Origin: an uncultured Bacteroidales bacterium | GTDB taxonomy: Bacteria; Bacteroidota; Bacteroidia; Bacteroidales; UBA932 | DNA: 64,000 nt | Assembly: GCA_944325505.1 (NCBI GenBank) | Contig: CALVAJ010000010.1 | Span: 1-64,000 of the forward strand | Direction: 5' to 3' | In this document: piece by piece, positions 19,151 to 57,225 of the stretch | How positions within the stretch are numbered: the stretch's first letter is position 1 | Layout of the letters: the number at the start of each line of letters is the position of its first letter | Notes under the pieces: generated by a model | The model's input: the letters and a program-made list of their open reading frames with translations, nothing else | The model's database searches: none | Told to the model about the DNA's origin: nothing | Made by a program: the position numbers and the translations under genes

Positions 19151-19259
19151 GTTTATTTTTGATGATTACTGCGTCAGACTTCGTATCGTCAGTCAGTCAT
19201 TTACAGGAGTAAACTCCTTACCTCCTCACTCGTCTTCCTTGTACTAATCAAAAATAAAC
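19151..19259 (-). ncRNA. Nested-palindrome element, copy D (candidate structured RNA)
   Basis: One of four related elements in this window. The outer arms GTTTATTTTTGAT and ATCAAAAATAAAC (19151-19163 and 19247-19259) pair perfectly. Read on the minus strand, the inside contains CAAGG near the 5' arm and GTCTGACG near the 3' arm, an inner GAC/GTC pairing, and the apical hairpin GGAGT-TT-ACTCC. It lies in the leader of tRNA-Ala if the promoter at 19301 is used. A structured RNA or mobile palindrome; function unknown. Confidence 0.6.
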
Positions 19260-19300
19260 TTCAAAAAACTATGTTTCCAGACCTTGGTCTGAAGTGTCGG

Positions 19301-19308
19301 CAAAGGTA
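19301..19308 (-). promoter_or_regulatory. -7 box TACCTTTG, probable tRNA-Ala promoter
   Basis: Minus-strand TACCTTTG with ATTG at the -33 position after 19 bases. If this is the tRNA-Ala promoter, the precursor has a leader of about 150 nt containing element D. Confidence 0.5.
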
Positions 19309-19341
19309 GGAATTTTATTTTAATTTGCAATATTTTATAGT

Positions 19342-19349
19342 TACTTTTG
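19342..19349 (+). promoter_or_regulatory. -7 box TACTTTTG for dut-murF
   Basis: TACTTTTG with a TTTA-like -33. It overlaps the in-frame TTG at 19347, which rules out that extended start of dut and supports the ATG at 19404. Confidence 0.55.
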
Positions 19350-19403
19350 TCAGTTTTCAAAATATTGGCCCGGACATCCGGAATTAAAACAGTTCAAACA
19401 GTT

Positions 19404-19835
19404 ATGAAAATCAGGATTGTAAATAAATCAGCCTTCAACGTACCCGAATATGCGACTGAACTTTCAGCCGGCATGGATTTGAAGGCAAACATAAATGAGC
19501 CTGTCTCTCTGGCTCCGCTGCAGAGAGTGCTGGTTCCTACAGGTCTTTACATGGCATTGCCGGAAGGTACCGAGGCTCAGATAAGGCCGCGCAGCGGTCT
19601 TGCAGCAAAACATGGAGTGACCGTACTCAATTCACCTGGAACGGTCGACGCCGACTACCGGGGTGAAATCAAGGTAATTCTCGTAAACCTTTCCGATACT
19701 CCTTTTGTCATCAATCCTGGTGAAAGAATAGCCCAGATGGTGATAGCGCGTCATGAAAAGGCGGAATGGGAAGAAACGGAGTCCCTCGATACGACATCAA
19801 GGGGCGAAGGAGGATTCGGTAGCACCGGCAGATAA
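19404..19835 (+). CDS. dut: dUTP diphosphatase
   Basis: Trimeric dUTPase of about 143 residues that hydrolyses dUTP to dUMP, keeping uracil out of DNA. The five motifs are visible: AGMDLKA (I), [11 protein letters not shown] (II), [15 protein letters not shown] (III), GERIAQMVI (IV) and [11 protein letters not shown] (V, the C-terminal arm). It is followed 10 bases later by murF and probably shares its transcript, a pairing that is not functionally obvious. Confidence 0.97.
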
Positions 19836-19845
19836 TCAGGTCAGC

Positions 19846-21216
19846 ATGATTGGATATTCGGATAAAATGAAAGACGGAGCGAATCGTCTGTATGACATCT
19901 TTCTGGAAAGCTCCGGTGTAAATACCGACACCAGAACCATCAGGGAGGGAGAAATGTTCTTTGCCCTGAAAGGAGAGAATTTCGACGGGAATGAATATGC
20001 ACTGAAGGCTCTGGAAGCAGGGGCATCGTGTGCCGTAGTCTCGTCGGGTTCCGATGCAGCCGCACTGGCCGGTAAAGACCGGCGGATCATTCCCGTCGAA
20101 AACACGCTCAACGCCCTCAAGGACCTCGCCCGCACTCACAGATGCGCCATGTCACCCGGAGGGAAACGGCTTCCGGTAATAGGGCTTACCGGAACCAACG
20201 GCAAAACGACGACAAAAGAACTGATAAAGTCAGTACTTGAAAGGAAATACAATGTAACCGCGACACAAGGCAACCTCAACAATGAAATCGGTGTTCCTCT
20301 GTCCATTCTGAAAATCACGCCGGAAACCCAGATTGCCGTAATTGAAATGGGGGCGAGCCATCCAGGAGACATCAGAAGCCTCGTGTCCGTATCAATGCCT
20401 GACTTCGGACTTATAACAAATGTCGGCAAAGGGCATCTTCTCGGATTCGGAAGCTATGAAGGAGTAAAGAAAACCAAAGGGGAACTCTACGACTATATCA
20501 GGGAACACGGAGGAAAGATTTTCCTTAATGAAGATCTGCCGTATCTCCATGAAATGGCCTCAGCCCGTGGAATAGAGGATATAATCCCATATGGAGTTGA
20601 ATACGACGGTGCCGGGATACTGCCTCTCCGCCCGGAAAAACCGTTCCTGAGAATGGAAATCCCGGTCTCCTGTACGCAGACATACACTCTGGAAACCAGG
20701 CTTGCAGGAAAATACAATGCCGGCAACGTAATGGCTGCCCTTGCAGTAGGAAAGTACTTCGGCGTTCCGGTCACCGACGCCCTCGAAGCAGTCAGGGACT
20801 ATACCCCGTCCAACAACCGGTCGCAGCTGACCGATACAGGGAAGAATATCCTCATCGTGGACGCATACAATGCAAATCCGGTAAGCATGGAAGCCGCACT
20901 TGACAATCTTGAGGCAATCCCTTCTGGCAACAAGATCGCCATGCTCGGAGACATGCTGGAACTCGGGAAAGACTCTGCCGCCGAACACGACAAAGTACTT
21001 GAACGCGTTGCCGCAATGGAGCTCAAGGCAGCATATTTCGTAGGGTCGGAATTCGAAGCTGCATTTTCACGCTGCACGATGCCTGAGAACTGCAGGCATT
21101 TCAGCACATCATCGCAGCTCTCCGGATACCTTGGCAAGGAAACTCCGTCAGGATGTACCATACTCATAAAAGGCTCCCGGGGCACACATATGGAGAACGT
21201 GATACCGGCGCTGTAA
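19846..21216 (+). CDS. murF: UDP-MurNAc-tripeptide--D-Ala-D-Ala ligase
   Basis: ATP-dependent Mur ligase that completes the cytoplasmic peptidoglycan precursor; about 456 residues. Seen: substrate domain with VNTDTRTIREGEMFFALKGENFDGN, P-loop GLTGTNGKTTTKE at about 113-125, GNLNNEIGVPLS, and the C-terminal VDAYNANPVSMEAAL with a DxYNAxP motif typical of MurF. Start at 19846 avoids the long overlap with dut that a further upstream ATG would create. It ends six bases from a convergent gene. Confidence 0.96.
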   Translation: MIGYSDKMKDGANRLYDIFLESSGVNTDTRTIREGEMFFALKGENFDGNEYALKALEAGASCAVVSSGSDAAALAGKDRRIIPVENTLNALKDLARTHRCAMSPGGKRLPVIGLTGTNGKTTTKELIKSVLERKYNVTATQGNLNNEIGVPLSILKITPETQIAVIEMGASHPGDIRSLVSVSMPDFGLITNVGKGHLLGFGSYEGVKKTKGELYDYIREHGGKIFLNEDLPYLHEMASARGIEDIIPYGVEYDGAGILPLRPEKPFLRMEIPVSCTQTYTLETRLAGKYNAGNVMAALAVGKYFGVPVTDALEAVRDYTPSNNRSQLTDTGKNILIVDAYNANPVSMEAALDNLEAIPSGNKIAMLGDMLELGKDSAAEHDKVLERVAAMELKAAYFVGSEFEAAFSRCTMPENCRHFSTSSQLSGYLGKETPSGCTILIKGSRGTHMENVIPAL

Positions 21217-21222
21217 GACCTG

Positions 21223-23061
21223 CTAATATCTTACAGCAGCGCAGTACAGGTCCACTGAACTGCCGGTCTCCACTTTTCTCCATGCTTTTCCGTTGTCCGA
21301 GAACATGAGAAGACCACCATCGCCCGGCATCAGGAAACAGCCCTTGCTGTAGAAGATGCCGGAATATCCTTTTGCACCCGTCTCTGTCCTCGTCCACCCA
21401 ATCCCCCCGACCGAATATACCGCCCTTCCGAAAATATCAGGTCCTGCATATATTCCTTCCCCATAGGCAAGGTAATAGACAAGTCTGAAACCTGTATCTT
21501 CCGTATTCTGCCAGGATATCCCGTCAGGAGAATAGGCGAGGTAGCCGTCTGATATTGCGACAAAACCGTCCTTGCCATATACGAGGCACGGAAAATCGGA
21601 CTGGAAACCCTTGCATACCCTCCAGGACTCTCCGTCTGACGAAGCAAAGAAATGCCCTGAAGTAATTCCTCCTGCGGCGGTCATATAATATCCTGTAGCG
21701 GCAAATGTCCCCTTGCCGTAAGCCACATCTTCCATGCAATAGCCTTTCTTTTCCGTCACCTGCCATGAAATGCCGTCTGTTGAAACTGCAGCATATCCGT
21801 TTACCTTCCTCGGATATGCCCTTCCGCTTAACGCCGACATCCTGTACCCTACCGCGACATATCTGCCGTTCCCGTAAGCCAGAGCCTGCCAGTGTGCCGT
21901 CCCGGCCTCTGTCACCTGCCATGTTTCCCCGTCCGGCGAATATGCGAGACGGCCGTCATCTCCGGCCATGACATATTTCCCCGATGCATATATGATATCC
22001 CTCCAGGCTACATCCCCTACTCTGATTTCTATAATCTCGCCCTGTGAATCCGTATAAAAAACATTTCCTGATTCCCCGGCAGCCACGAATCTGATTCCGG
22101 GGACATTGGCTCCGCTCCGGACTTCCCATATATAGTCCCTCGGACCGTTACCGGTCAGACGCAATGTAACAAGGGAATACGTATCCCTCACGATATTGCA
22201 GTCCGATACGGCGTCGGCTCCAAGGCACAAACTGTATACACGGCCGGAATCGGCGCTGCCATCATCCCCGGCAACAGTAATTTCCAGACAGGTACATCCG
22301 GACTGTTTTCCGGCAGGAAGATTGTCGGGAGTCTTGTCCCGGGAATCTTCATTGTCCGGGAAAAGTACGCCCTGGCAGTTCTCCAGGACGGAAACATATA
22401 TGATCCTCCCTTCGCGGACATATTCGATTTCATCCTGCGAAGCAGAATATGCTCCAAGTACCGTCTTCGCCTTATAACCGTCGGAAAAAGGACTGTAATC
22501 CTCTGCAGGATTGACTATCCGGACAGACTCCAGGCGGAAATTCCCTGAAGAGGGGACTTCTACTTTCAATCCGATTTTTGCCGCTACGGGAGACAGTGAA
22601 AGGGAAACACTGCAATGTGCGCCTGAAACAATGGCGGACGAAACGGCAGACATCGGGAGGCCCTCCGCCCCGAGTTCAGAAAGCTCACGGATACTGTATC
22701 TGCTGTTTTTCAGTGACCGTTCATCCAACGGAGGATACAGCTGTCCCTTATTGGCCAGCGCATAGAACCTGTATTCCCGGCCTGATTCAAGGTACATACC
22801 GGCCTTCGTTATATCTTCTGTATATACGTAATCTTCGAGGCTTCCGTTCCTGTACACATAGATATTCACATCTTTTATCCCTGCCTCGCCTTCCTGCCAG
22901 ACTGTCCCTGCATTCACGACTCCGATATTGAAACTTACCGATGTCCTGTGCGTCAGGTCTTCCGATCCTCTCTCCCACGTCATCCGTCTGCAGCCGGAAA
23001 AGGCACAGACAATGAACAGCCATATTACAGCATCCCTGACATTTAACATGATTCTACCCAT
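21223..23061 (-). CDS. Fimbrillin-like lipoprotein with seven-bladed propeller
   Basis: Surface lipoprotein of 612 residues (608 from the ATG at 23049). Lipobox FSGC follows a short hydrophobic signal. Residues about 35-310 resemble fimbrillin/DUF4906-type proteins: GIKDVNIYVYRNG, a YLESGREYRFYALANKG strand pair, PVAAKIGLKVEVPSSG. From about 315 to the end there are six repeats with the pattern YGxGxYVAxG ... YSxDGxSWQxTE (DGETWQ, DGISWQ, DGESWR, DGISWQ, GGIGWT, NGKAWR); the final strand DLYCAAVRY completes the first IRFVAAGESGNVFY blade, giving a closed seven-blade ring. Possibly a tip adhesin or scaffold. No partner pilin genes are adjacent. Confidence 0.7.
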   Translation of the reverse strand: MGRIMLNVRDAVIWLFIVCAFSGCRRMTWERGSEDLTHRTSVSFNIGVVNAGTVWQEGEAGIKDVNIYVYRNGSLEDYVYTEDITKAGMYLESGREYRFYALANKGQLYPPLDERSLKNSRYSIRELSELGAEGLPMSAVSSAIVSGAHCSVSLSLSPVAAKIGLKVEVPSSGNFRLESVRIVNPAEDYSPFSDGYKAKTVLGAYSASQDEIEYVREGRIIYVSVLENCQGVLFPDNEDSRDKTPDNLPAGKQSGCTCLEITVAGDDGSADSGRVYSLCLGADAVSDCNIVRDTYSLVTLRLTGNGPRDYIWEVRSGANVPGIRFVAAGESGNVFYTDSQGEIIEIRVGDVAWRDIIYASGKYVMAGDDGRLAYSPDGETWQVTEAGTAHWQALAYGNGRYVAVGYRMSALSGRAYPRKVNGYAAVSTDGISWQVTEKKGYCMEDVAYGKGTFAATGYYMTAAGGITSGHFFASSDGESWRVCKGFQSDFPCLVYGKDGFVAISDGYLAYSPDGISWQNTEDTGFRLVYYLAYGEGIYAGPDIFGRAVYSVGGIGWTRTETGAKGYSGIFYSKGCFLMPGDGGLLMFSDNGKAWRKVETGSSVDLYCAAVRY

Positions 23062-23191
23062 AACCTGATTTTTCAGGGCGCTAATATATTGCTTGTAATC
23101 CTGGGACGGAACGGCCGTAGTGCAGATTTTTCTCTTTTTTTAAGTTTTTTCTTTTTTTATATCCGGTATCCCCTGCCCTGCAATACAAACC

Positions 23192-23222
23192 AGAGCCGGC
23201 CCGAAAATTCCGGGCCGGCTCT
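23192..23222. terminator. GC-rich hairpin downstream of acidic small protein gene
   Basis: AGAGCCGGCCCG and CGGGCCGGCTCT are perfect arms around a short AT loop. There is no strong T tract on either side. It lies after the stop of the minus-strand gene at 23246. The rest of 23062-23191 holds only T-rich runs (23130-23160). Confidence 0.6.
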
Positions 23223-23245
23223 GCCTGTATCATATTTTCATTTAT

Positions 23246-23611
23246 TTACTCTGAATCGGAAGAATCATCATCACCTGTCGCATACTGGGAGATATTGTCA
23301 TCAGGAAGGTCCTCACCGTCTCCGCTGTCTCCTGCTCCCTCCTCATCATCGTCATCTCCGTCAAGCCATCTCTCGATATCATCCGCATCATCCGTCTTCA
23401 CCTTTATCTTAACGAGATATACGGCATCGGGAATCTCAAGGGTAACTGCATAGAAGCTCGTTCCGTCAGGCTTGTCATACTTCTGCAGATCTGTGAAATA
23501 GTCGCTGAATCCTTTAGGATATTTCTCGGCAAACGCAGCAGCCAGCTCTTCCGACATGTTCTCGAAGCTTACGACCGCCCTTTTCTTCTGATTTATCGGC
23601 TTGTTATCCAT
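23246..23611 (-). CDS. Conserved-looking small protein with highly acidic C-terminus
   Basis: About 121 residues from MDNKPINQKKRAVVSFENMS; an upstream in-frame start at 23668 overlaps the likely -7 region (TATACTTG, 23666-23673) and is rejected. The N-terminal 80 residues form an alpha/beta unit (LAAAFAEKYPKGFSDYF, SFYAVTLEIPDAVYLVKIKVK); the tail is almost all D, E, G and S (DDADDIERWLDGDDDDEE). No signal peptide, so probably cytoplasmic. I recall similar uncharacterised Bacteroidota proteins but no function. Separate from argS by about 107 bases. Confidence 0.7.
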   Translation of the reverse strand: MDNKPINQKKRAVVSFENMSEELAAAFAEKYPKGFSDYFTDLQKYDKPDGTSFYAVTLEIPDAVYLVKIKVKTDDADDIERWLDGDDDDEEGAGDSGDGEDLPDDNISQYATGDDDSSDSE

Positions 23612-23718
23612 GTTCTTGATATTCTTTCTGTGTACCTGAAAACTGTTTCTTTTTAAATTCGGGTGCAAGTATAGAACATTTTTCTGAATCCGGTATGCAT
23701 TTTCAAAAAAAAATTAGC

Positions 23719-25518
23719 CTACATCCTTTCCGGAAGCTCGATTCCGAGAACAGACATTGCCTTGACAAGCACCTGGGCCACTTTCCCGATCAGCACAAGA
23801 CGGTATTTAAGCAGTCTGGAATCCTCTTCCTTCAGGATAGGAGTATCATGGTAGTACTGGTTGAACTCTTTGGCCAGATCGTAGGAATAATTGGCTATAA
23901 CGGCCGGAGAATATGCCGCCCCTGCTTCCGAAATCTTTCCAGGGAACTGGTCAAGCATCTTTATTATACGGATCTCTTTCGCCGAAAGGGGAATATCCGC
24001 TGCAATGTCACCGGCACCGGCCACCACTCCGGATGAAGCGGCCTTCCTCAGAATGGACTTGATCCTGGCATGGGTATACTGGATGAAAGGTCCGGTATTG
24101 CCGTTGAAGTCAATGGATTCCTTGGGATCGAAAAGCATTGTCTTCTTTGGATCCACCTTGATGATGAAATACTTCAGTGCGCCGAGACCTATCATATGGA
24201 AAAGCCTCTCCTGCTCATCCTGGTCCATATCGCTGAGTTTTCCCAGCTCCAGTGAAGTCTCCCTGGCCGTAGAGTACATTTTCTCTATCAGGTCATCCGC
24301 ATCCACGACAGTCCCTTCTCTGGACTTCATCTTTCCTTCAGGGAGTTCCACCATACCGTATGAAAGATGGTAGATATTGTCCGCCCACGCAAAGCCCAGT
24401 TTCTTGAGTATCAGTTTCAATACCTGGAAATGATAGTTCTGCTCATTGCCGACCACATATACATGCTCGTCGAGACTGTATTCGGAGAACCTCTGCTCTG
24501 CAGTACCGAGATCCTGGGTCATATAGACTGACGTCCCGTCTCCGCGAAGCAGCAGTTTCCTGTCGAGTCCGTCAGCAGTAAGGTCGCACCATACCGACCC
24601 GTCGGCCTCCTTCTCGAATATCCCCATATCCAGACCTTTCTGCACAAGTGCCTTGCCGAACAGATAAGTCTGTGATTCATAATATGTCCTGTCAAAGGAA
24701 ATACCGAGATCCCTGTAAGTTTTGTCGAATCCGGCATATACCCATCCGTTCATCTTCTTCCAGAGTTCCACCGTCTGCGGGTCTCCCTGTTCCCACTTGC
24801 GGAGCATTTCCTGGGCCTCTTTCAATGAAGGGGCCTCCTTCTCCGCATCTTCCTTCGGCATTCCTCCCGCCACGAGACGGTCTACCTCGTCCTTATAGAT
24901 ATTGTTGAATGCGACATAATAATCCCCTACCAGATGGTCGCCTTTCTTTCCCGAAGACTCCGGAGTCTCTCCGTTGCCCGTCTTGAGCCATGCGAGCATG
25001 GACTTGCAGATATGGATTCCACGGTCATTTACCAGATTCACTTTCAAAACCTTATGGCCGTTAGCCTCCAGAAGTCTCGATACCGACCAGCCAAGAAGGT
25101 TGTTCCTGATATGCCCAAGGTGCAGAGGCTTGTTGGTATTGGGCGAAGAGAATTCCACCATTACGGTCCTGCCGGTAGGCGCATGCTGTCCGAAATCATC
25201 GGCCGAGGCTATACCGGCGAAAAGTTCATTCCAATATACGGTCGAAAAGGATATATTAAGAAACCCTTTCACGACATTATAGGACGCTATCTCGGAGAAA
25301 TGTCCTTTAAGATACTCTCCTATTGCATTTCCTGTAGCTTCCGGATTCGACCTCGATACTTTCAGCAAGGGAAAGACAACCAGTGTATAGTCGCCTTCAA
25401 ACTCTTTCCGGGTCACCTGAACCTGAAACAGGCCCTCATCCATCTGCGCACCGTACAGGGATTTCACAGCTTCCGCTGCCTTTTCTGCAATAAATTTTTC
25501 AGGATTGATATTCATCAT
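23719..25518 (-). CDS. argS: Arginyl-tRNA synthetase
   Basis: Class I aminoacyl-tRNA synthetase, 599 residues. Seen: the N-terminal Add-1 domain, the HIGH motif as HLGH (SPNTNKPLHLGHIRNN, about 125-140), LVNDRGIHICKS, the KMSKS region as GKMKSREGTVV, and a helical anticodon-binding C-terminus ending LGIELPERM. Two adjacent ATGs exist (25518, 25515). Length is normal for the family. Confidence 0.97.
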   Translation of the reverse strand: MMNINPEKFIAEKAAEAVKSLYGAQMDEGLFQVQVTRKEFEGDYTLVVFPLLKVSRSNPEATGNAIGEYLKGHFSEIASYNVVKGFLNISFSTVYWNELFAGIASADDFGQHAPTGRTVMVEFSSPNTNKPLHLGHIRNNLLGWSVSRLLEANGHKVLKVNLVNDRGIHICKSMLAWLKTGNGETPESSGKKGDHLVGDYYVAFNNIYKDEVDRLVAGGMPKEDAEKEAPSLKEAQEMLRKWEQGDPQTVELWKKMNGWVYAGFDKTYRDLGISFDRTYYESQTYLFGKALVQKGLDMGIFEKEADGSVWCDLTADGLDRKLLLRGDGTSVYMTQDLGTAEQRFSEYSLDEHVYVVGNEQNYHFQVLKLILKKLGFAWADNIYHLSYGMVELPEGKMKSREGTVVDADDLIEKMYSTARETSLELGKLSDMDQDEQERLFHMIGLGALKYFIIKVDPKKTMLFDPKESIDFNGNTGPFIQYTHARIKSILRKAASSGVVAGAGDIAADIPLSAKEIRIIKMLDQFPGKISEAGAAYSPAVIANYSYDLAKEFNQYYHDTPILKEEDSRLLKYRLVLIGKVAQVLVKAMSVLGIELPERM

Positions 25519-25552
25519 ACTCTATTCTGGGTGATATTCATTGAAAACAATA

Positions 25553-25633
25553 AAGGAAGTGACTCAAAAGCAGGGTTTCCTTTGCGGTATCCCGGATGAT
25601 TCCGGAACTTCCCTGTTTTCGGGTCACTTTCTT
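25553..25633 (-). terminator. Long hairpin between rpoD and argS
   Basis: Imperfect arms of about 24 nt: GTGACTCAAAAGCAGGG at 25559 pairs with CCCTGTTTTCGGGTCAC ending 25627, extended by AAGGA/TCTT-type pairs outside. An inner TCC-GGA hairpin fills the loop. On the minus strand it is followed by a T-rich run (CTTCCTTTATTGTTTTC), so it probably terminates rpoD. Its ends look like those of the element at 57103, but the AAGG/TRACG core is missing. Confidence 0.5.
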
Positions 25634-25642
25634 CAGGACATA

Positions 25643-26503
25643 TTATCCGAGGTAGCTTTTGAGCAGCTTGCTTCTTGAATTGCTCCTGAGCTTGCGGATC
25701 GCCTTTTCCTTGATCTGACGGACTCTTTCCCTTGTCAGGCCGAACCTTTCCCCGATTTCCTCCAGTGTCATTTCCTGGCATCCGATGCCGAAGAAAGATT
25801 TCACTATCTCGCGTTCCCTTGTGGCAAGTGTGGAGAGCGCCCTTTCTATCTCCCTGTTAAGGGACTCGTTTACAAGTCCTTTATCGGCATTTGGAGAGTC
25901 ATTGTTCACCAACACGTCCAGCAGGCTGTTGTCTTCGCCCTCGACGAACGGTGCATCTACCGAAACATGCCTTCCCGAAACCCTGAGAGTATCGGCGATC
26001 TTGTCCTTCGGGACATCTATCATCTCGGAAAGCTCCTCCGTAGACGGCATCCTCTCATGCTCCTGCTCAAACCTCTGGAGAGCCTTGTTGATCTTGTTCA
26101 GGGAACCTACCTGGTTCAGGGGAAGCCTTACAATCCTCGACTGCTCCGCAAGAGCCTGAAGAATCGACTGACGGATCCACCACACCGCATAAGAGATGAA
26201 TTTGAATCCCCTGGTCTCATCGAACTTCTCTGCAGCCTTTATCAGACCCAGGTTTCCCTCATTGATAAGGTCCGGAAGGCTCAGCCCCTGGTTCTGGTAC
26301 TGCTTTGCCACGGATACCACGAACCTCAGGTTTGCTCTTGTAAGTTTTTCAAGTGCGGCCTGGTCACCCTTGCGGATGCGCTGCGCGAGCTCGACCTCCT
26401 CTTCAACTGTGATCAGTTCCTCCCTGCCGATCTCCTGCAGATATTTGTCCAGTGAAGCACTTTCACGGTTAGTAATCGACTTTGTAATCTTTAGCTGTCT
26501 CAT
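25643..26503 (-). CDS. rpoD: Primary RNA polymerase sigma factor RpoD/SigA
   Basis: Housekeeping sigma factor of 286 residues, the compact Bacteroidota form without region 1.1. Seen: region 1.2 ([27 protein letters not shown] start), region 2 ([45 protein letters not shown]), region 3, and region 4 helix-turn-helix ([29 protein letters not shown]). It is the protein expected to read the TTTG/TAnnTTTG promoters of this window. Only 15 bases separate it from the htrA stop upstream, so read-through or an internal promoter drives it. Confidence 0.97.
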
Positions 26504-26518
26504 AAATAAATCTGTCTT

Positions 26519-33879: not shown

Positions 33880-34356
33880 ATGAAGACCAGGGAAATAAAT
33901 ATCAGTTACACTGAATACGAAAGCATGGACCAGCTGTCCTGCGCTGACCGTGAACTGGCCGAGGCCGCCATAAAGGCAATGTCGGGAGCCTACACTCCCT
34001 ACTCGCATTTCAATGTCGGGGCTGCTGTCAGACTTTCTACCGGAGAAATAGTAACAGGGGCAAACCAGGAAAACATCGCGTTTCCTTCCGGACTGTGTGC
34101 CGAAAGGACCGCAATGTTCCATGCCAGCGCCACGCATCCTGATGCCGCAATGGTGGAAATCGCCATCACCGCCAGTCAGGACGGCAAGATATGTGCTTCA
34201 CCTGCAACACCTTGCGGAGCCTGCCGTCAGGTCATGGCCGAGTATCAGGGAAAATCCGGCAGGCCGATGTCAATCCTGCTTGTCGGCGGAGAAAAGATCT
34301 GGAAATTCTCCAGAGTGGACGACATCCTGCCGCTGATATTCGATTCGCTCAAATAA
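33880..34356 (+). CDS. cdd: Cytidine deaminase
   Basis: Zinc enzyme of pyrimidine salvage, deaminating cytidine and deoxycytidine; 158 residues, the small tetrameric form. Seen: YSHFNVGAAV, GANQENIAFPSGLCAERTA with zinc-ligand Cys73 and catalytic Glu75, and PCGACRQ with ligands Cys112 and Cys115. The N-terminus is about 20 residues longer than the minimal enzyme. Element C begins seven bases after the stop. Confidence 0.95.
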   Translation: MKTREINISYTEYESMDQLSCADRELAEAAIKAMSGAYTPYSHFNVGAAVRLSTGEIVTGANQENIAFPSGLCAERTAMFHASATHPDAAMVEIAITASQDGKICASPATPCGACRQVMAEYQGKSGRPMSILLVGGEKIWKFSRVDDILPLIFDSLK

Positions 34357-34362: not shown

Positions 34363-34484
34363 TAAAAGCATTTGAATCGAGGGATTTCAAGGAACACAAA
34401 AGTCCGAACACCGGAGTTACCTTCCGGTAATGAGGATGTAAGGAATGAAGTGTGACGACGAAAGCAGCGATTTAAATGCTTTTA
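34363..34484 (+). ncRNA. Nested-palindrome element, copy C (candidate structured RNA)
   Basis: Outer arms TAAAAGCATTTGAATCG (34363-34379) and CGATTTAAATGCTTTTA (34468-34484) pair at 17 of 17 positions counting one G-U. Inside are ATTTCAAGG next to the 5' arm, TGACGACGAAAG next to the 3' arm, an inner ACAC/GTGT pairing, and the apical hairpin ACCGGA-loop-TCCGGT. It fills the convergent gap between cdd and the SRP RNA. Shares its plan with copies at 19151, 49022 and 57103. Confidence 0.65.
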
Positions 34485-34493
34485 AAGAAAAAT

Positions 34494-34590
34494 GGGTAAG
34501 CTTAATACATCGCACCGCTACAACCTCCTACCCTTGCTGCCTTCCGGCCCTGGGGGAATTCAGAGGGAGCTGGTCGTGTATGACTTACCC
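34494..34590 (-). ncRNA. ffs: Signal recognition particle RNA (4.5S type)
   Basis: 97-nt RNA on the minus strand. The universally conserved SRP domain IV is plain: GGCCGGAAGGCAGCAAGGG around 34531-34550. The ends GGGTAAG and CTTACCC pair to close the hairpin. Promoter TTTG-N18-TACCTTTG lies immediately upstream and predicts initiation within a few bases of 34590. It partners Ffh in membrane targeting of nascent proteins. Confidence 0.95.
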
Positions 34591-34594
34591 GTTG

Positions 34595-34624
34595 CAAAGG
34601 TAATCATTTTTTCGTGATTGCAAA
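34595..34624 (-). promoter_or_regulatory. SRP RNA promoter, TTTG-N18-TACCTTTG
   Basis: Minus-strand -7 TACCTTTG (34595-34602) and -33 TTTG (34621-34624). The -33 box lies within the last codons of the upstream flavoprotein gene, so promoter and coding sequence overlap. Confidence 0.75.
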
Positions 34625-47415: not shown

Positions 47416-49023
47416 ATGAGTAAAATTGATTTGACCAAGTACGGCATCACAGACGTGAAGGAAATTCTCCACAACCCGTCTTACGAAGTGCTCTTCGCAG
47501 AAGAGACAAAAGACACTCTCGAGGGTTATGAGAAAGGCCAGGTTACCGAGCTCGGTGCTGTCAACGTAATGACAGGTATCTACACCGGACGTTCTCCTAA
47601 AGACAAATTCTTCGTTTACAACGAGGCCAGCAAAGACACCGTATGGTGGACTTCTGACGCATACAAGAATGACAACAAACCATGCTCTGAAGAGGCTTGG
47701 GCCGACCTTAAGGCAAAGGCTGTAAAGCAGCTCTCAGGCAAGAGGCTTTTCGTAATGGATACTTTCTGCGGAGCAAACCCTGCTACCCGTCTTAAAGTAC
47801 GTTTCATCATGGAAGTCGCATGGCAGGCTCACTTCGTAAAGAACATGTTCATCCGTCCTACAGAGGAGGAACTTGCAAACTACGGCGAGCCTGATTTCGT
47901 ATCATTCAACGCTGCAAAGGCAAAGGTAGAGAACTACAAGGAGCTCGGCCTCAACTCAGAGACAGCTACAGTGTTCAACCTCAAGACCAACGAGCAGGTT
48001 ATCCTGAACACATGGTACGGCGGTGAGATGAAGAAAGGTATCTTCTCCATCATGAACTACCTCAACCCGCTCCGCGGAATCGCCTCAATGCACTGCTCAG
48101 CAAACACCGACAAGGAAGGAAAGAGCACAGCTATCTTCTTCGGCCTTTCAGGAACAGGAAAGACCACCCTTTCAACCGACCCTAAGAGACTCCTCATCGG
48201 TGATGACGAGCACGGCTGGGACGATGAAGGCGTATTCAACTATGAAGGCGGCTGCTACGCAAAGGTCATCAACCTTGACAAGGAAAGCGAGCCGGATATC
48301 TACAACGCCATCAGAAGGGATGCCCTCCTTGAGAACGTTACAGTAGACGCCGCAGGCAAGATCGACTTCGCTGACAAGAGCGTTACAGAGAACACCCGCG
48401 TATCATACCCTATCGACCACATCGAGAACATCGTAAAACCGGTTTCAAAGGGTCCTCACGCAAAACAGGTTATCTTCCTTTCTGCTGACGCATTCGGAGT
48501 ACTTCCTCCGGTTTCCATCCTCACTCCTGAGCAGACCCAGTACTACTTCCTTTCAGGATTCACCGCAAAGCTCGCAGGTACAGAGCGCGGTATCACTGAG
48601 CCTACTCCTACCTTCTCAGCATGCTTCGGTGCAGCATTCCTGTCACTCCACCCTACAAAATACGGTGAGGAGCTCGTAAAGAGAATGAACGCAGTAGGTG
48701 CAAAGGCTTACCTCGTAAATACAGGATGGAACGGAACAGGAAAACGTATCTCAATCCGTGATACCCGCGGTATCATCGACGCTATCCTTGACGGTTCTAT
48801 CGAGAAGGCTCCTACAAAGAAGATCCCTTACTTCGACTTCGAGGTTCCTACAGAGCTTCCAGGCGTAGATCCTGCTATCCTTGACCCTCGCGACACATAC
48901 GCTGACGCAAGCGCTTGGGATGCAAAGGCAAAAGACCTCGCAGGACGTTTCATCAAGAACTTCGACAAGTTCACAGGGAATGAGTTGGGTAAGTCACTCG
49001 TTGCAGCAGGTCCGAAGCTCTAA
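47416..49023 (+). CDS. pckA: Phosphoenolpyruvate carboxykinase (ATP)
   Basis: Interconverts oxaloacetate and PEP with ATP/ADP; in anaerobic Bacteroidota it runs towards CO2 fixation into oxaloacetate and fumarate respiration. 535 residues. Seen: [13 protein letters not shown], the [12 protein letters not shown]-loop at 243-253, [40 protein letters not shown]. Codon choice is visibly more restricted than in its neighbours, as expected for a highly expressed gene, and the promoter is a perfect consensus. Followed by element B and a strong terminator. Confidence 0.98.
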
Positions 49024-49132
49024 AAATTAATTTAAAGGTAATTTCGACGTTAGACTTCACTTCTCAAATCCTCACAACCATTCGGTTTTCGAAGTTCGTC
49101 AGCCTTGAAATTCCTCTTTAAATTGAATTTTT
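49022..49132 (-). ncRNA. Nested-palindrome element, copy B (candidate structured RNA)
   Basis: Begins at the pckA stop. Outer arms are AT-rich (AATTTAAAG near 49029 with CTTTAAATT near 49116, extended by AAAAATT/AATTTTT at the ends). Read on the minus strand the core has ATTTCAAGGCTGACGAA, GAAAACC around the apical AACC-GAAT-GGTT hairpin, and GAAGTCTAACGTCGAAAT, closely matching copy A. Orientation is opposite to pckA. Confidence 0.6.
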
Positions 49133-49172
49133 ACATGGTGAAGTAAAAAGTCAATTTCACTATATTATTATG

Positions 49173-49203
49173 GACAGGTTCCGGATTCCGGGACCTGTCT
49201 TTC
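49173..49203 (+). terminator. Rho-independent-type terminator after pckA
   Basis: GACAGGTTCCGG and CCGGGACCTGTC pair around ATT, followed by TTTCT. It lies 150 bases after the pckA stop, beyond element B, so the pckA message carries the element in its 3' region (antisense orientation). Confidence 0.85.
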
Positions 49204-49222: not shown

Positions 49223-49303
49223 CAATCCATGAAATCATGACCGTTGCGTCCGCACGGGGAGGGTCACACGGAGCGGAAAGGGTTTCATGTAGCTCATGGA
49301 TTG
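49223..49303. repeat. 81-bp inverted-repeat structure upstream of M16 protease
   Basis: Perfect 10-bp arms CAATCCATGA (49223-49232) and TCATGGATTG (49294-49303), with a second CATGA/TCATG pair just inside and GC-rich partial stems in the centre. The AAGG/TRACG core of elements A-D is not evident. It ends ten bases before the G9 tract. Confidence 0.6.
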
Positions 49304-49312
49304 CAAAATTTC

Positions 49313-49321
49313 GGGGGGGGG
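49313..49321 (+). repeat. Homopolymer G9 tract at promoter -33 position
   Basis: Nine consecutive G bases. The -7 box TATATTTG of the downstream gene is at 49344, so the tract ends where the -33 box would begin. Such tracts are prone to slipped-strand length change. Confidence 0.85.
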
Positions 49322-49343
49322 TAACAATTCAAAAGAAAAAAAC

Positions 49344-49351
49344 TATATTTG
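49344..49351 (+). promoter_or_regulatory. -7 box TATATTTG for M16 protease
   Basis: TATATTTG, 65 bases before the ATG at 49416. No TTTG -33; the position 19 bases upstream is the end of the G9 tract. Confidence 0.6.
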
Positions 49352-49415
49352 CATTCGGCAACGTCAGAAATTCACTAATAATGAAAAACTTGACCTTATT
49401 TACATTTTACAATAT

Positions 49416-52316: not shown

Positions 52317-52320
52317 CCAT

Positions 52321-52356
52321 AAGGAAAGAGCAGCGCGGTTGCGCTGCTCTTTCCTT
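52321..52356. terminator. Strong bidirectional terminator
   Basis: Sixteen-base perfect arms AAGGAAAGAGCAGCGC and GCGCTGCTCTTTCCTT around GGTT, between the convergent M16 protease and rpmE2 genes. Confidence 0.9.
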
Positions 52357-52381
52357 ATAATAATTTTCCATACGGAAAATA

Positions 52382-52627
52382 CTATTTCTTCTTGTATCTC
52401 TGGTAGAATTTGTCCACGCGACCTGCGGTGTCCACGAGTTTCATCTTTCCTGTGTAGAACGGATGGGACGTGTTTGAAATCTCGACCTTTACCACCGGGT
52501 ATTCAACGCCGTCGACCTCGATGGTCTCCTTTGTGTTCGCGCATGAGCGGGTGATGAACACCACGTCATTCGACATATCCTTGAAAGCTACAAGACGGTA
52601 GTTTTCGGGATGAATTCCTTTTTTCAT
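52382..52627 (-). CDS. rpmE2: 50S ribosomal protein L31 type B
   Basis: 81 residues, large-subunit protein of the 5S bridge region. [21 protein letters not shown] and [25 protein letters not shown] identify L31; the zinc CxxC pairs of type A are absent, so this is the zinc-independent type B form. A perfect promoter (TTTG-N19-TACCTTTG) is at 52665-52695. Confidence 0.97.
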
Positions 52628-52664
52628 TTCCTTTAAAATTTTAGTTAACTATAATTTCAGGGTG

Positions 52665-52695
52665 CAAAGGTAAGACAATATTCTTAACTGTCAAA
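52665..52695 (-). promoter_or_regulatory. rpmE2 promoter, TTTG-N19-TACCTTTG
   Basis: Minus-strand -7 TACCTTTG (52665-52672) and -33 TTTG (52692-52695), 19 bases apart. The leader before the ATG is about 30 nt. Confidence 0.85.
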
Positions 52696-52704
52696 GATTT
52701 TCGC

Positions 52705-54162
52705 CTATTTTTCAGGTATATTTTCCAGGGTCGCGATGACGAACTTCCACCATTTCTCCACTGTAGCGATGTTTGCACGCTCGTCAGGAGAATGAGGGCT
52801 GAGGATTGTCGGACCGCAGGAAACCATATCCCAGTGAGGATATGCGCCTCCGAGAATGCCGCATTCGAGCCCTGCATGGATAGCCATCACGGCAGGCTCT
52901 TTTCCGTAGAGTCCCTTATAAACCTCTTTCATGGTATGAAGTATAGGGGAAGAACTGTCCGGAGCCCATCCCGGATATCCGCCGGAGAACACGACCTTGA
53001 ATCCGGCCAGCTCGAACACTGCCCTCGCCTGCTCCGCCATGGCATCTTTGGCGGTATCTACAGAGCTTCTCATGAGCGTCTTGACATAGATTTTTCCGTT
53101 TTCGGACTTCACGATTGCCGTATTGTTGGATGTCTCGACAAGTCCAGGTACAGCATCGCTCATCCTCCACACTCCGTCAGGGCATCCGCTCACGGCACGT
53201 ACTGCGGCAAGTGCGGATGAATCTTCAATATACTCTGCCGGAGCGGTGTCCAGCGCTTCCACGAACATGGCGGCATCCGGATCCGTCACGGAATATTCTG
53301 CCCTGACCGCCGAAGCGGCAGACTCTGTCAGTTCCCTGACCTGCGGCACCTTGTCTTCAGGAACCAGAATCTGGGCAAAGGCTTCACGCGGTATGGCATT
53401 CCTCAGACTGCCGCCGTCTACCGATACCAGTTTCACGCCCAGATCGCGGAGCAGTGGAAGAAGGACACGGGCCATCACTTTGTTGGCATTTGCCCTGTAC
53501 AGGACGATGTCCATTCCGGAGTGCCCTCCCTTCAGGCCCTTGACAGTAAGAAGGAAAGGTTTGTATCCGGACGGTGCCGGCGCGGTACCATACGGCAGCT
53601 CCGCCGTGATGTCCAGCCCTCCTGCACAGCCGACATACAGTTCGCCTTCGGTTTCCGAATCCAGATTTATAAGGATATCGCCTTTCAGAATACCGGGTTT
53701 CAGCGCACGCGCCCCGGTCATTCCGGTCTCCTCATCGACAGTCACCAGAACCTCGACAGGCCCGTGTTTCAAGTCTTTGGACTCAAGCACCGACATGGCG
53801 ACAGCCACTCCAAGACCGTTGTCGGCCCCGAGGGTCGTTCCTTTCGCCCTTACCCACTCACCGTCGACCCAGGCCTCAATAGGGTCTTTTTCGAAATCAT
53901 GCACCTTGTCTGCATTCTTCTGGGGCACCATGTCTATATGGCCCTGGAGGATCACTCCCTTACGGTTTTCCATCCCGGGAGTCGCCGGCTTCCTTATTAT
54001 AATATTGCCAACCTCATCCTTAATGGTTTCAAGGCCGAGGGATTTTCCGAAATCATAAAGGAATTCCGCTGCCTTGCCTTCCTTTTTGGACGGACGCGGT
54101 ATCTGAGTAAGCGAATAAAAGTTCTTCCAGACGAGCTGGGGATTCAAATCTTTAAGTTCCAT
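52705..54162 (-). CDS. pepD: Cytosolic aminoacyl-histidine dipeptidase (PepD, M20)
   Basis: Broad dipeptidase of 485 residues, M20 metallopeptidase family. Seen: LQGHIDMVPQK (metal His and Asp), TTLGADNGLGVAVAMSVLE, TVDEETGMTGARAL with catalytic Glu pair, LLNLDSE-type segment ILINLDSETEGELYVGCAGG, and the dimer/lid domain. No signal peptide. It fits peptide use together with the POT importer 1.2 kb downstream. Confidence 0.96.
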   Translation of the reverse strand: MELKDLNPQLVWKNFYSLTQIPRPSKKEGKAAEFLYDFGKSLGLETIKDEVGNIIIRKPATPGMENRKGVILQGHIDMVPQKNADKVHDFEKDPIEAWVDGEWVRAKGTTLGADNGLGVAVAMSVLESKDLKHGPVEVLVTVDEETGMTGARALKPGILKGDILINLDSETEGELYVGCAGGLDITAELPYGTAPAPSGYKPFLLTVKGLKGGHSGMDIVLYRANANKVMARVLLPLLRDLGVKLVSVDGGSLRNAIPREAFAQILVPEDKVPQVRELTESAASAVRAEYSVTDPDAAMFVEALDTAPAEYIEDSSALAAVRAVSGCPDGVWRMSDAVPGLVETSNNTAIVKSENGKIYVKTLMRSSVDTAKDAMAEQARAVFELAGFKVVFSGGYPGWAPDSSSPILHTMKEVYKGLYGKEPAVMAIHAGLECGILGGAYPHWDMVSCGPTILSPHSPDERANIATVEKWWKFVIATLENIPEK

Positions 54163-54191
54163 CGGATTGTATTGTAATTAATTGGTTATTG

Positions 54192-55262
54192 TCATCTGAT
54201 TTCCACATTTACGGGGAGCGTACTCTCCGTTCCGAGCTGGTACACCGGCACGCGGCTCTGGAAAAGCACATTCATGCCATCCAGAAGCCGAACTGTACAT
54301 ATGGCAGGAATCCTGTATGTAACAAAACCGTTCTCCTTGCTCTTTTTGGATATTTTCTGCTCCTGGGACACTGACGGAGCCACCGGCTGCGGCACGATTT
54401 CGAGAATTAGAGGCTTGCCGGAAAGGTTGTCCGGAGGCAGAAGGCCTGCGGAATCGGAAATCCTGAAAGCCACATACAACTGGTTCTCCCTGTCGCTCTG
54501 AGGCACCACCTCAAAGGTCATTTTCTGGGTCCTGTATTCAGAGTATCCGGTAAACATCGACATATATTCCTTCTCCAGCCTCGTAAGCTCGGCCACCGCC
54601 GCCCCCATGGCCTCGCCGCTGTAAGTGGCATCGGTATCGCCGGTGACTATCTGGTAACGCTTCTCCCTGATATCGAAAATCATGGCAGCGGTCTCGGCAG
54701 CCTTTTTCTCCTCGGACTTCTCTACTATCACCTCCTGCCTGATGGCCACGCGGCTGTATGCAGACTCATGTTTCACATTCTGATAAAGGGTCGCGGATTC
54801 CGATGCGAGATTTGACGTCAGTCCGATTCCCGAAAAGTCTCCGGAAGCCGGAGCCGGGAATCTCCATGCCTGCGCATCCCCGAAGCTGCCGTCAGAGCCG
54901 GCGACAAGCCCCATGGATGTAAGCTTGAGGAACGCGGCCTCAAGCTTCCCGTCTCCCACATCAAGAATGAAACGGCGGCTGTGATCGGCCTCCGCATACG
55001 GAGTCATGCTTACCTTCGAAACCGTATAGGACTGGGAATCTTTCTGTCTTGCATCGATGCCGAGATACTTGGATGCATATTTTGCATAAGGTCCGGCGTA
55101 GAAATTCTCCTGGACAGCCTCCACTTCCAATACAAGCGACGTAGCCGGAAGGCTATAGGACAACACCCCCTGAGGGTCAGGCTGCGACTTGGTTTTCTGG
55201 GCATTCAATGCGATGCCGCAAAGCAACAACCCTGCACAAAGCACAGCTTTTCTGGTTTTCAT
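54192..55262 (-). CDS. DUF4831-family secreted protein
   Basis: 356 residues with a signal peptide ending ALNAQ. LSYSLPATSLVLEVEAVQENFYAGPYAKYASKYLG is the DUF4831 N-terminal signature; the rest is beta-rich with conserved RREVIVEK-like and YAFRI-type strands (VAFRISDSAGLLPPDNLSG). Found throughout Bacteroidales; function unknown. -7 box TATATTTG at 55315-55322, divergent from the POT gene. Confidence 0.88.
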   Translation of the reverse strand: MKTRKAVLCAGLLLCGIALNAQKTKSQPDPQGVLSYSLPATSLVLEVEAVQENFYAGPYAKYASKYLGIDARQKDSQSYTVSKVSMTPYAEADHSRRFILDVGDGKLEAAFLKLTSMGLVAGSDGSFGDAQAWRFPAPASGDFSGIGLTSNLASESATLYQNVKHESAYSRVAIRQEVIVEKSEEKKAAETAAMIFDIREKRYQIVTGDTDATYSGEAMGAAVAELTRLEKEYMSMFTGYSEYRTQKMTFEVVPQSDRENQLYVAFRISDSAGLLPPDNLSGKPLILEIVPQPVAPSVSQEQKISKKSKENGFVTYRIPAICTVRLLDGMNVLFQSRVPVYQLGTESTLPVNVEIR

Positions 55263-55314
55263 ACTGTCTGATTTAAATGGTTAATACTTGTTCTGCCATT
55301 CAGGCACAACTTAG

Positions 55315-55322
55315 CAAATATA
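55315..55322 (-). promoter_or_regulatory. -7 box TATATTTG for DUF4831 gene
   Basis: Minus-strand match 53 bases upstream of the start; the divergent POT box is 32 bases further on. Confidence 0.5.
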
Positions 55323-55354
55323 GAAAATTTTTACGATTTCTAACCATATTTTAT

Positions 55355-55362
55355 TACCTTTG
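55355..55362 (+). promoter_or_regulatory. -7 box TACCTTTG for POT transporter
   Basis: TACCTTTG overlaps the upstream in-frame TTG at 55360, so the real start is the ATG at 55414. Confidence 0.55.
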
Positions 55363-55413
55363 TCAGGCTTCAAACGCCACGGCACCGACAATAATTCAAA
55401 ACCCGATAAACTT

Positions 55414-57078
55414 ATGTTCAAAGGTCAACCAAAAGGGCTGTTCGCCCTCGCTCTCGCCAACACCGGTGAAAGGTTCGGATACTACACCATGCTGGCGATT
55501 TTCGTCCTGTTCATACAGGCAAAATTCGGATTTACGGCAGCAGAGTCCACGCAGATTTACGGCGGATTCCTGGCAGCCGTATATTTCATGCCTCTGATAG
55601 GAGGCTTCCTTGCCGACAGGATAGGTTTCGGCAAGTGCGTCACCATAGGATTTGCCGTCATGTTCCTCGGCTATCTGTGCCTTGCAATACCTACGGAAGC
55701 GAATACGATGGGAAAGGTCGCCATGTTCGGGGCTCTTGCGCTCATCGCTGCCGGAACGGGACTGTTTAAAGGCAACCTTCAGGTAATGGTCGGCAACCTG
55801 TACGACAGTCCGGAATACGCCTCCAAGAGGGACGCGGCATTCAGCCTTTTCTACATGGCCATCAATATCGGCGCAATGTTCGCCCCGACGGCAGCCAAGG
55901 CAGTGACCAACTTCTTTTTAGGAAAGTCAGGACTTGCATACAATGCCAATGTACCGGCTCTCGCCCACCAGTTCATCGACGGGACGATAACCCCCGAGAA
56001 CACCGAAAAGCTCACAAGCCTGATGGCTTCCATGCCGGGAGCATCCGGAATGGACCTTGCCGCATTCAGCCAGACTTACATAGAGAAGCTCTCGACCTCC
56101 TACAGCTACGGGTTCGGGGTAGCCTGCGTCTCCCTGATAGTCTCAGTACTCATATACTTTGCATGCCGCAGCTGGTTCAAACATGCGGATGTCAATGCCA
56201 AGCAGGCCAAGGCAGCCCATGTCAATGAGCCTGAGCTTACTCCGGCACAGACCAGAAGCCGTATCATCGCACTCATGCTCGTGTTTGCGGTAGTGATCTT
56301 CTTCTGGATGGCATTCCACCAGAACGGAGGCACGATGACCATCTTCGCCCGCGACTACACTGAAAATGTCGCGACAGGCTTCACCAGAATCGGTTTCAAC
56401 ATCGGATGTCTGGCTCTTATAGCGATTTCGATATACACACTGTTCGGTGCTTTCCAGTCAGAGACACGCAACGGCAAATTCTCATCAGGAATCGCTACAG
56501 CAGTACTCTGGGGAGCAGCATACTGGATCTACTCCGGAATGCCGGAGTCAGTATCCATCCAGCCATCTGATTTCCAGCAGTTCAACCCGTTCTACGTAGT
56601 TGCCCTCACGCCGGTGTCAATCGCCATATTCAGTGCGCTGGCAAAGAAAGGCAAAGAACCGTCCGCTCCGAGAAAAATCGGAATGGGAATGTTCGTGGCG
56701 GCACTCGGATTCCTTATCCTTGCAGTCGGCTCCATCGGACTTCAGTCTCCTAAGGAACTCGGCGGTACCGTCAGCCCGGACCTCGTCTCTCCGACATGGC
56801 TCATGAGCACATATCTCGTGCTGACTTTTGCCGAACTGCTGCTCTCTCCTATGGGTATATCTTTCGTATCCAAGGTAGCCCCTCCTAAATACAAAGGTGC
56901 GATGATGGGATGCTGGTTCGCCGCAACTGCTGTCGGCAACTACCTTACCTCTGTGCCGGGACTGCTCTGGAACAAGCTTCCTCTGTGGGGAGTATGGGCA
57001 ATACTTATCGCCCTGTGCCTCATCTCTTTCGTAGTCATTTTCTCCATCATGAAGAAAATCGAAAGCGCAACGGAATAG
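55414..57078 (+). CDS. POT-family proton-dependent oligopeptide transporter
   Basis: Inner-membrane MFS symporter of about 554 residues importing di/tripeptides. Start MFKGQPKGLFALALANTGERFGYYTMLAIF contains the POT helix 1 motif, but the first Glu of ExxERFxYY is Asn here (NTGERFGYY). Further on: YGGFLAAVYFMPLIGGFLADR and AALALIAAGTGLFKGN-like helix, FYMAINIGAMFAP (the FYxxINxG motif), and ELLLSPMGISFVSKVAP. About 14 hydrophobic spans. Element A follows the stop. Confidence 0.94.
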   Translation: MFKGQPKGLFALALANTGERFGYYTMLAIFVLFIQAKFGFTAAESTQIYGGFLAAVYFMPLIGGFLADRIGFGKCVTIGFAVMFLGYLCLAIPTEANTMGKVAMFGALALIAAGTGLFKGNLQVMVGNLYDSPEYASKRDAAFSLFYMAINIGAMFAPTAAKAVTNFFLGKSGLAYNANVPALAHQFIDGTITPENTEKLTSLMASMPGASGMDLAAFSQTYIEKLSTSYSYGFGVACVSLIVSVLIYFACRSWFKHADVNAKQAKAAHVNEPELTPAQTRSRIIALMLVFAVVIFFWMAFHQNGGTMTIFARDYTENVATGFTRIGFNIGCLALIAISIYTLFGAFQSETRNGKFSSGIATAVLWGAAYWIYSGMPESVSIQPSDFQQFNPFYVVALTPVSIAIFSALAKKGKEPSAPRKIGMGMFVAALGFLILAVGSIGLQSPKELGGTVSPDLVSPTWLMSTYLVLTFAELLLSPMGISFVSKVAPPKYKGAMMGCWFAATAVGNYLTSVPGLLWNKLPLWGVWAILIALCLISFVVIFSIMKKIESATE

Positions 57079-57102
57079 ACATTTTCCGCCCCGTACGGGG
57101 CT

Positions 57103-57225
57103 AAAGAAGGTGACTGAAAAGTGGTATTTCAAGGCTTGCGAAGAAAAGAAAACCGCAGTGTACTATCGTACATAAGGATTTTCGAATCAAGCGTAACGAA
57201 ACAACACTTTCAGTCACCTTTCTTT
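57103..57225 (+). ncRNA. Nested-palindrome element, copy A (candidate structured RNA / terminator)
   Basis: Arms of 21 nt (57103-57123 and 57205-57225) starting AAAGAAGGTGACTG and ending CAGTCACCTTTCTTT pair with one or two bulges. The core has GTATTTCAAGGCTTGCGAAG on the left and GAATCAAGCGTAACGAAAC on the right (GCTTG/CAAGC inner stem) and the apical TGTAC-TATC-GTACA hairpin. The 3' arm runs into TTTTATTCC, so it may also terminate the POT message. A separate 14-bp palindrome GCCCCGTACGGGGC precedes it (57088-57101). Confidence 0.65.

Follow-up and report, generated by a model that had tools for sequence, protein, structure and literature searches.

Four palindromic elements and their surroundings

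The DNA analysed here, called the window below, comprises 64,000 nucleotides from an uncultured Bacteroidales bacterium (positions 1 to 64,000 of contig CALVAJ010000010.1, assembly GCA_944325505.1) and harbours four palindromic elements of 109-123 bp. An initial annotation of the sequence had described them as nested palindromes with variable stems and a fixed internal loop, and the positions and strands that it gave are correct. Element 1 (19151-19259, minus strand; core match 19162-19251) represents a tRNA-leader type and is located directly 5' of a co-oriented tRNA-Ala(tgc) gene (19067-19142, minus strand), which was identified by a match to the Rfam tRNA family. Element 2 (34363-34484, plus strand; core 34378-34467) has unique arms and lies between the stop codon of the open reading frame (ORF) 33880-34356 (plus strand) and the 3' end of a Bacteroidales small signal recognition particle RNA on the minus strand (34490-34597; RF04183, 114.2 bits). 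Element 3 (49022-49132, minus strand; core 49038-49117) also has unique arms, and its apical hairpin is shortened. It is antisense to ORF 47416-49023 (plus strand), whose stop codon is overlapped by the right arm, and an intrinsic-terminator-like hairpin, detected by pattern match only, follows 40 bp further on (49172-49200, plus strand). Element 4 (57103-57225, plus strand; core 57120-57208) is a member of subfamily A, introduced below, and is situated between the convergent ORFs 55360-57078 (plus strand) and 57275-57976 (minus strand).

The outer arms differ among the four copies. Folded as RNA on the strand that carries CAAGG, every copy forms a single long nested hairpin. Compared with 200 dinucleotide shuffles, the folds of copies 1 to 4 reached z-scores of -5.4, -7.1, -2.4 and -6.5; one of the 200 shuffles was as stable as copy 3, and none was as stable as copies 1, 2 and 4. 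The opposite strand gave z-scores of -3.7, -5.8, -3.2 and -6.8 and folded less regularly, with copy 4 being more stable on this strand than on the CAAGG strand. As had been annotated, each of the four elements has CAAGG on its 5' side and TRACG on its 3' side; the GnAA said to follow TRACG is a loose description for copy 4 (TAACGAAACAACA). The conserved core of about 75 nt can be written as AAGGC, helix 2, GNA, helix 3, GGAG, a TTTAC/GTAAA hairpin, TGA, helix 3', helix 2' and AACGNAGAAA. No named Rfam family matched the elements of the window at the gathering score, in line with the annotation, and a search with eight element loci at E<=10 yielded, apart from one tRNA, only matches far below the gathering scores.

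Copies and subfamilies in the genome

To search for further copies we used three covariance models. R1 was built from six copies, the four of the window and two found by pattern; R2 from 66 Bacteroidales copies, with the four window elements among the training rows; and R3 from 20 gammaproteobacterial elements that were preselected by pattern and aligned with R2. R2 and R3 are independent in their sequences, not in their alignment. At E values up to 10, R2 detected in the window exactly the four elements, all of which belong to its training set. In the 2.36-Mb draft genome the expected further copies were found: R1 gave 36 matches at E<=3.1e-7 and 49 rows in total at E<=10, several of the weaker rows being short forms of subfamily A.

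The copies fall into two subfamilies and a remainder with unique arms, to which elements 2 and 3 belong. Subfamily A, which includes element 4, consists of eleven dispersed copies whose cores are nearly identical (L004-L008, L010-L014 and L016). By eye, its members form a deletion series of full-length elements, forms of about 73 bp and 59 bp, and a plain hairpin, which fits slippage at hairpins. The relative G315 preserves an older element whole (L177); at L004 the right half of this element contains, or has given way to, a subfamily A copy. Subfamily B, which includes element 1, comprises leaders of tRNA genes, some of them arranged as tandem arrays.

Covariation and strand bias

The covariation of the stems that had been noticed in the four copies holds for the wider family. 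In the alignment of 66 Bacteroidales copies, which was itself fitted to the structure, 16 of 18 pairs show two-sided changes and 91.7% of the pair cells hold standard pairs. Two-sided changes were counted in 189 cells compared with 46 +/- 6 in shuffled alignments (0 of 500 shuffles reached 189), and the covariation score was 0.472, compared with 0.125 in shuffles and 0.058-0.084 in slid controls. A set of 31 copies, including 24 that do not come from Bacteroidota, gave a covariation score of 0.370 versus 0.109; here neither the pairs with two-sided changes (10 versus 9.0 in shuffles) nor the further pair types (22 versus 21.2) exceeded the shuffles. The apical hairpin of this set, including the G.U pair at its base, was fixed by the search pattern.

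The pairing of the arms could have arisen from templated repair between them (quasi-palindrome correction) instead of selection. The near-identical cores of subfamily A bear outer arms that differ and yet mostly pair, and in element 3 the right arm holds, by eye, an inverted copy of flanking sequence that is found at the empty site of a close relative; both observations favour such a process. On the other hand, the internal mismatched loops have been kept uncorrected and the helices of the core covary as well. Repair as the source of the arm covariation is therefore a serious possibility, to which we give somewhat less than even weight.

A second explanation is that the elements are primarily a selected cis-acting RNA family with a role in processing or stability, which spread by duplication and was kept for its function. 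Besides the covariation, it draws on orthologous tRNA leaders in four genomes, which retain the element and show paired changes in its arms and hairpin, and on the G.U pairs. A G.U pair occupies the base of the hairpin in 61 of the 65 rows with letters in the 66-row alignment. A neutral alignment of the arms of 122 non-redundant elements revealed 115 mismatches of the G.U type and 41 of the A.C type. Resolved by set, with poorly pairing arms dropped, the ratio was 10:5 in the own genome (26 of 33 elements used), 43:25 in the genus (60 of 71), 60:13 in the order-wide set (34 of 36), 7:3 in other Bacteroidota (7 of 7), 19:17 in Gammaproteobacteria and others (19 of 24) and 4:0 in E. coli K-12 (3 of 3). 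Elements with more G.U outnumbered those with more A.C by 26 to 2 order-wide, where type-1 elements share ancestry and the counts are not independent, and by 25 to 11 in the genus; in the other sets the excess per element was not significant. From the excess of G.U-type mismatches we lean towards the CAAGG strand as the folded strand in Bacteroidales. The order-wide count, however, derives in part from related elements, the hairpin-base G.U of the 31-copy set is a product of the pattern, and the gammaproteobacterial arms have no such bias. The patchy presence within the genus, the empty sites, the target-site duplications and the excess of antisense over sense copies at protein genes, all described below, also speak against an RNA family that is not primarily mobile, and we regard this explanation as unlikely.

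Relationship to ERIC

ERIC (enterobacterial repetitive intergenic consensus) entered the literature in 1990-91 as an enterobacterial repeat, and vibrios were later added to its hosts. The core of the Bacteroidales elements, which looked ERIC-like in view of the ERIC primers, was compared with ERIC copies. A 44-mer derived from the primers is present in 5,373 of 5,426 E. coli genomes. Against two retrieved ERICs, R2 gave matches spanning model positions 1-90, with E values of 8e-5 and 4.5e-4 (2.5 kb searched). In a total of 250 kb from E. coli K-12 it produced 8 hits at E<=10, among which the three ERICs detected by BLAST rank 1, 3 and 4 (E 1e-5, 0.045 and 0.065), again at model positions 1-90; the ERIC at rank 1 sits in a K-12 stretch picked without knowledge of ERIC. 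In the reverse direction, the gammaproteobacterial model R3 placed elements 1, 2 and 4 at the top of the window (E 8e-8 to 7e-6; next hits 0.12 and 0.24) and missed element 3 with its shortened apical hairpin. In K-12 the ERICs rank 1, 4 and 5 under R3, the best hit being an ERIC with an E value of 6.5e-6. Both searches thus identified the core sequence and fold as homologous to E. coli ERIC.

Like ERIC, which is also known as IRU or RU-1 and is an imperfect palindrome of about 127 bp that occurs in many intergenic copies and forms a single long stem-loop, the elements are multicopy palindromes of similar length (109-123 bp; 36 genome matches). The ERIC core AAGGC..GGAG-hairpin-TGA..AACGCAG aligns end to end with the Bacteroidales copies. 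Of the K-12 copies checked, the one at ybhI resembles many Bacteroidales copies in being antisense and located beyond the stop codon, in its case by 24 bp; the remaining two are not arranged in this way. The Bacteroidales elements differ from ERIC in host phylum, ends, target duplications, tRNA-leader copies and tandem arrays. TATACTC-like ends with a TA target duplication were not found in them, and since these features of ERIC are not shared, only the core is homologous. Their hosts (Bacteroidales, other Bacteroidota, Pseudomonas and Halomonas) lie outside the Enterobacteriaceae and Vibrionaceae, the host range given for ERIC in the literature consulted; PMC2267715 lists E. coli, Y. pestis and V. 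cholerae. Among the listed search results and passages of the open-access PMC literature, none mentioned ERIC from Bacteroidota or Pseudomonas, and earlier notice elsewhere is possible. Two E. coli ERIC loci had no Rfam 15 match at the gathering score.

A second intergenic repeat of E. coli (GGAGAAACCGGAGCGTACA..GTACGTGAGGATTTCGAG), present in K-12 at L393:7714-7793 and L394:43697-43741, scored E 3.8e-5 and 0.0043 with R3 and 0.0043 and 0.13 with R2. It was undetected by BLAST with ERIC and is possibly another branch of the ERIC superfamily.

Ends, target duplications and site comparison

Evidence for mobility comes from one genome, G105, whose coordinates coincide with those of G384 (the source of L262, titled Bacteroidetes bacterium GWF2_35_48). 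Sixteen copies were taken from this genome, and both ends could be placed in 15 of them, in one case with a looser pattern. Fourteen of these 15 copies are flanked by identical 6-bp TANNTA target duplications, and the elements therefore move like miniature inverted-repeat transposable elements (MITEs), whose terminal inverted repeats and target duplications were found in this one genome. Palindromy as the sole source of the apparent duplications was rejected for non-palindromic cases such as TACTTA and TAACTA. One locus (L113, G105:C27:31500-31800) carries, by eye, a solo pair of ends without core between TAAATA repeats. The ends are specific to lineages: GTGYC with TANNTA in G105, elsewhere GGGTTCTAAAAA, AGGAACGAATC or terminator-like stems, with GTGTCAGCAAGAAAAC as an example from element-rich Bacteroidota. 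Besides the GTG-type ends with 6-bp duplications, GGG-type ends with duplications of about 5 bp were recognised by eye; the type-2 duplications of about 5 bp, for example at L090, L092 and L093, were read in the same way and are uncounted. Also by eye, Pseudomonas ends are flanked by CTAG or TTAG, recalling IS5-like elements. In the search for an autonomous parent in G105, contigs L096 and L102 carried an end together with other sequence and then stopped at the contig ends.

Single-stranded movement by a Y1 (IS200/IS605-like) transposase, as for REPIN/RAYT-type elements, would account for palindromic, intergenic, high-copy repeats and for the strand bias of the Bacteroidales arms. It is nevertheless very improbable: direct 6-bp duplications are at odds with what is known of Y1 transposition, and the core matches ERIC.

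At the sites of the own genome, a close relative (G299) is without element 3, and by eye there is no hairpin at its empty site. The notion that the core enters only the loops of existing terminators was dropped on the basis of this site. The flanks of ten subfamily A copies were searched in five relatives, and eight sites were aligned and read by eye. No element is present at L005 and L013 in either G315 or G300. At L008 the element is missing from G315, and G300 retains a remnant of the left arm. At the site of element 4, G300 contains a plain terminator-like hairpin instead of an element, and at L010 both relatives have plain hairpins. Core-deleted forms occupy the L007 and L011 sites in G300, and the L011 site of G315 is without core and has diverged flanks. 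The L016 site holds an inverted copy in G300 (L235) and a remnant in G315; the opposite orientation at orthologous sites suggests inversion between the arms. In both relatives (G315:C16 and G300:C14) some 5.5 kb separates the L006 flanks, and the own genome may have undergone a deletion bounded by an element. For L012 the flank search in relatives gave no pair. The differences between sites include deletions of ancestral copies and, likely, insertions.

Placement next to genes and tRNAs

Placement was scored with ORFs of at least 80 amino acids and a limit of 60 bp, a tRNA up to 420 bp downstream being counted first. Among 33 copies of the own genome, 10 are tRNA leaders, 12 have a convergent stop codon only at the right end, 2 at both ends and 3 only at the left; 2 lie at gene starts and 4 at none of these. 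In the same order the numbers are 1, 16, 1, 4, 1 and 13 for 36 order-wide copies, 0, 12, 4, 3, 6 and 6 for the 31 copies of the Gammaproteobacteria-and-others set, and 20, 21, 5, 9, 2 and 14 for 71 copies of genus relatives, which are partly orthologous to those of the own genome. Right-only stops thus exceed left-only stops by 40 to 10 in the own, order-wide and Gammaproteobacteria-and-others sets. Most copies outside tRNA leaders adjoin the 3' end of a gene, and at protein genes antisense copies are more frequent than sense copies. In K-12 one of the three ERICs (ybhI) shows the right-end convergent-stop arrangement.

This 3'-end placement would be expected if the elements were mobile or exchangeable transcription terminators, with the arms as terminator stems and the core as nothing but a large loop. 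By eye, plain hairpins occur at the same spot in relatives for element 4, L013, L005 and L010, and core-less copies with A/T tracts resemble terminators (L256). Yet element 3 is followed by a separate terminator-like hairpin, a T tract is missing from several arms (by eye, uncounted), and neither a core conserved across phyla nor copies in front of tRNAs are explained in this way. We consider a terminator origin quite unlikely.

Distribution across genomes

All counts in this section include the own genome. R1 matches were obtained in 8 of 31 genomes of the nearest set and, at E<=1e-4, in 64 of 247 genomes and 51 of 165 genera of the order, which bears out the prediction of copies in other Bacteroidales; copy numbers from this order survey are lower bounds, as filters were stricter and at most 17 candidates were scored. 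Within the genus the presence is patchy, with R2 matches in 12 of 41 genomes. The core pattern occurs in at least 118 stretches of GTDB contigs. Among 80 listed stretches, classed by record titles and in a few cases by general taxonomy, 50 are from Bacteroidota, 28 from Gammaproteobacteria and one each from Bdellovibrio and Arcobacter. Several of the genomes concerned are metagenome-assembled genomes (MAGs), in which binning errors are possible; isolates are also represented, for example Pseudomonas guguanensis and the complete chromosome of Halomonas socia. All 16 genomes picked for holding a hit, G105 among them, contained 1-139 matches at E<=0.01, with 38 in Pseudomonas guguanensis, 63 in Marinilabilia rubra and 139 in a Saprospiraceae MAG. 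Viral contigs yielded 0 exact matches to the core pattern, and blastn with one type-1 element found no match in plasmids and phages.

Interpretation

With good confidence, the four elements are non-autonomous, MITE-like mobile palindromes and represent in Bacteroidota a superfamily to which ERIC also belongs. The initial annotation had set an RNA family against a mobile palindrome of the REPIN type. The structural covariation stands, the mobile palindromes are of the ERIC kind, and the two alternatives are not exclusive, an RNA role of the core being possible.

Several points weigh against this reading. Two of the three K-12 ERICs score weakly under R2 (E 0.045 and 0.065) and under R3 (E 0.23 and 0.52, the latter match covering the hairpin only), two of the five K-12 stretches were picked because they bear ERIC, and rank 2 in both K-12 scans is the other E. 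coli repeat, which has no BLAST link to ERIC. The gammaproteobacterial set was preselected with a pattern containing the hairpin. The Bacteroidales copies share neither the TATACTC-like ends of E. coli ERIC nor its TA duplications, as given in PMC2759123 and PMC2229807. The own genus offers empty or altered sites and no clean target duplication, some of its arms resemble terminator stems (L256, by eye), and no transposase with matching ends was found, the contigs followed in G105 having stopped at their ends. An RNA function is only a possibility, and the G.U bias is absent from the gammaproteobacterial arms (19 versus 17).

With the elements as ERIC-type mobile palindromes, a resident DNA transposase of the DDE type could act on the ends and move them in trans. 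Copies would persist just past stop codons, where harm is small, and the arms would then drift, their pairing being maintained through selection for the hairpin, through templated repair of one arm from the other, or through both. Once transcribed, copies would fold and might influence how RNA is processed or how stable it is, an effect reported for Yersinia ERIC, and the tRNA-leader copies would now be passed on as part of the tRNA transcripts of this clade. According to PMC10969869 and PMC2229807, ERIC occurs at the 3' ends of Yersinia genes and acts on mRNA through an RNase E site in a manner that depends on its orientation. The orientation bias of the copies is at most compatible with such an effect. 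More tentatively, the ERIC-type core might be an ancient functional folded module that occurs across phyla, was repeatedly coupled to unrelated transposon ends and has been domesticated here as a leader of tRNA, perhaps also rRNA-spacer, transcripts.

Among other known systems, REP/REPIN repeats with RAYT are also dispersed intergenic palindromes. REPs measure 20-40 bp and carry a GTAG or CGTC tag (PMC3733652), whereas the Bacteroidales elements are about 110 bp long with a core of the ERIC type, and those of one genome have target duplications. By description, the enterobacterial YPAL, RU-2 and RU-3 are comparable as small mobile stem-loops near genes (PMC2759123), and the BrickBuilt MITE of Porphyromonas gingivalis as a MITE of Bacteroidota (PMC4596501, PMC10969869).

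The findings suggest that the repeat family is older and more widespread than the name ERIC implies. A core common to Bacteroidota and several Gammaproteobacteria, with constant loops while stems and ends change, turns ERIC into a comparative problem and provides the family with a structural model. It raises the questions of which transposases move the ERIC-type core, what keeps the unpaired loops constant, and why copies lie antisense against stop codons or before tRNAs. It also bears on ERIC-PCR, which presumes where ERIC repeats occur.

Genes adjoining the copies

By eye, the ORFs abutting elements appear full-length; by reading alone we take their products to be SerS, a GyrB-like protein, NDK, PurD, RadA and NuoE. 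An all-against-all BLAST of 586 ORFs (loci up to L073) brought up no apparent recurrent neighbouring mobiliser gene. The multi-locus clusters among the 25 listed represent overlapping or orthologous loci, ORFs running through an element, or one ORF family that is common to the own tRNA-array locus (L022/L028/L031) and the unrelated element locus L056.

Locus L021 contains, at 1408-1802, two element matches with tRNA-Ile on one side and tRNA-Ala on the other. This order of the two tRNAs is the usual one in the spacers of rRNA operons; the contig ends there, and we infer an rRNA operon context for both matches.

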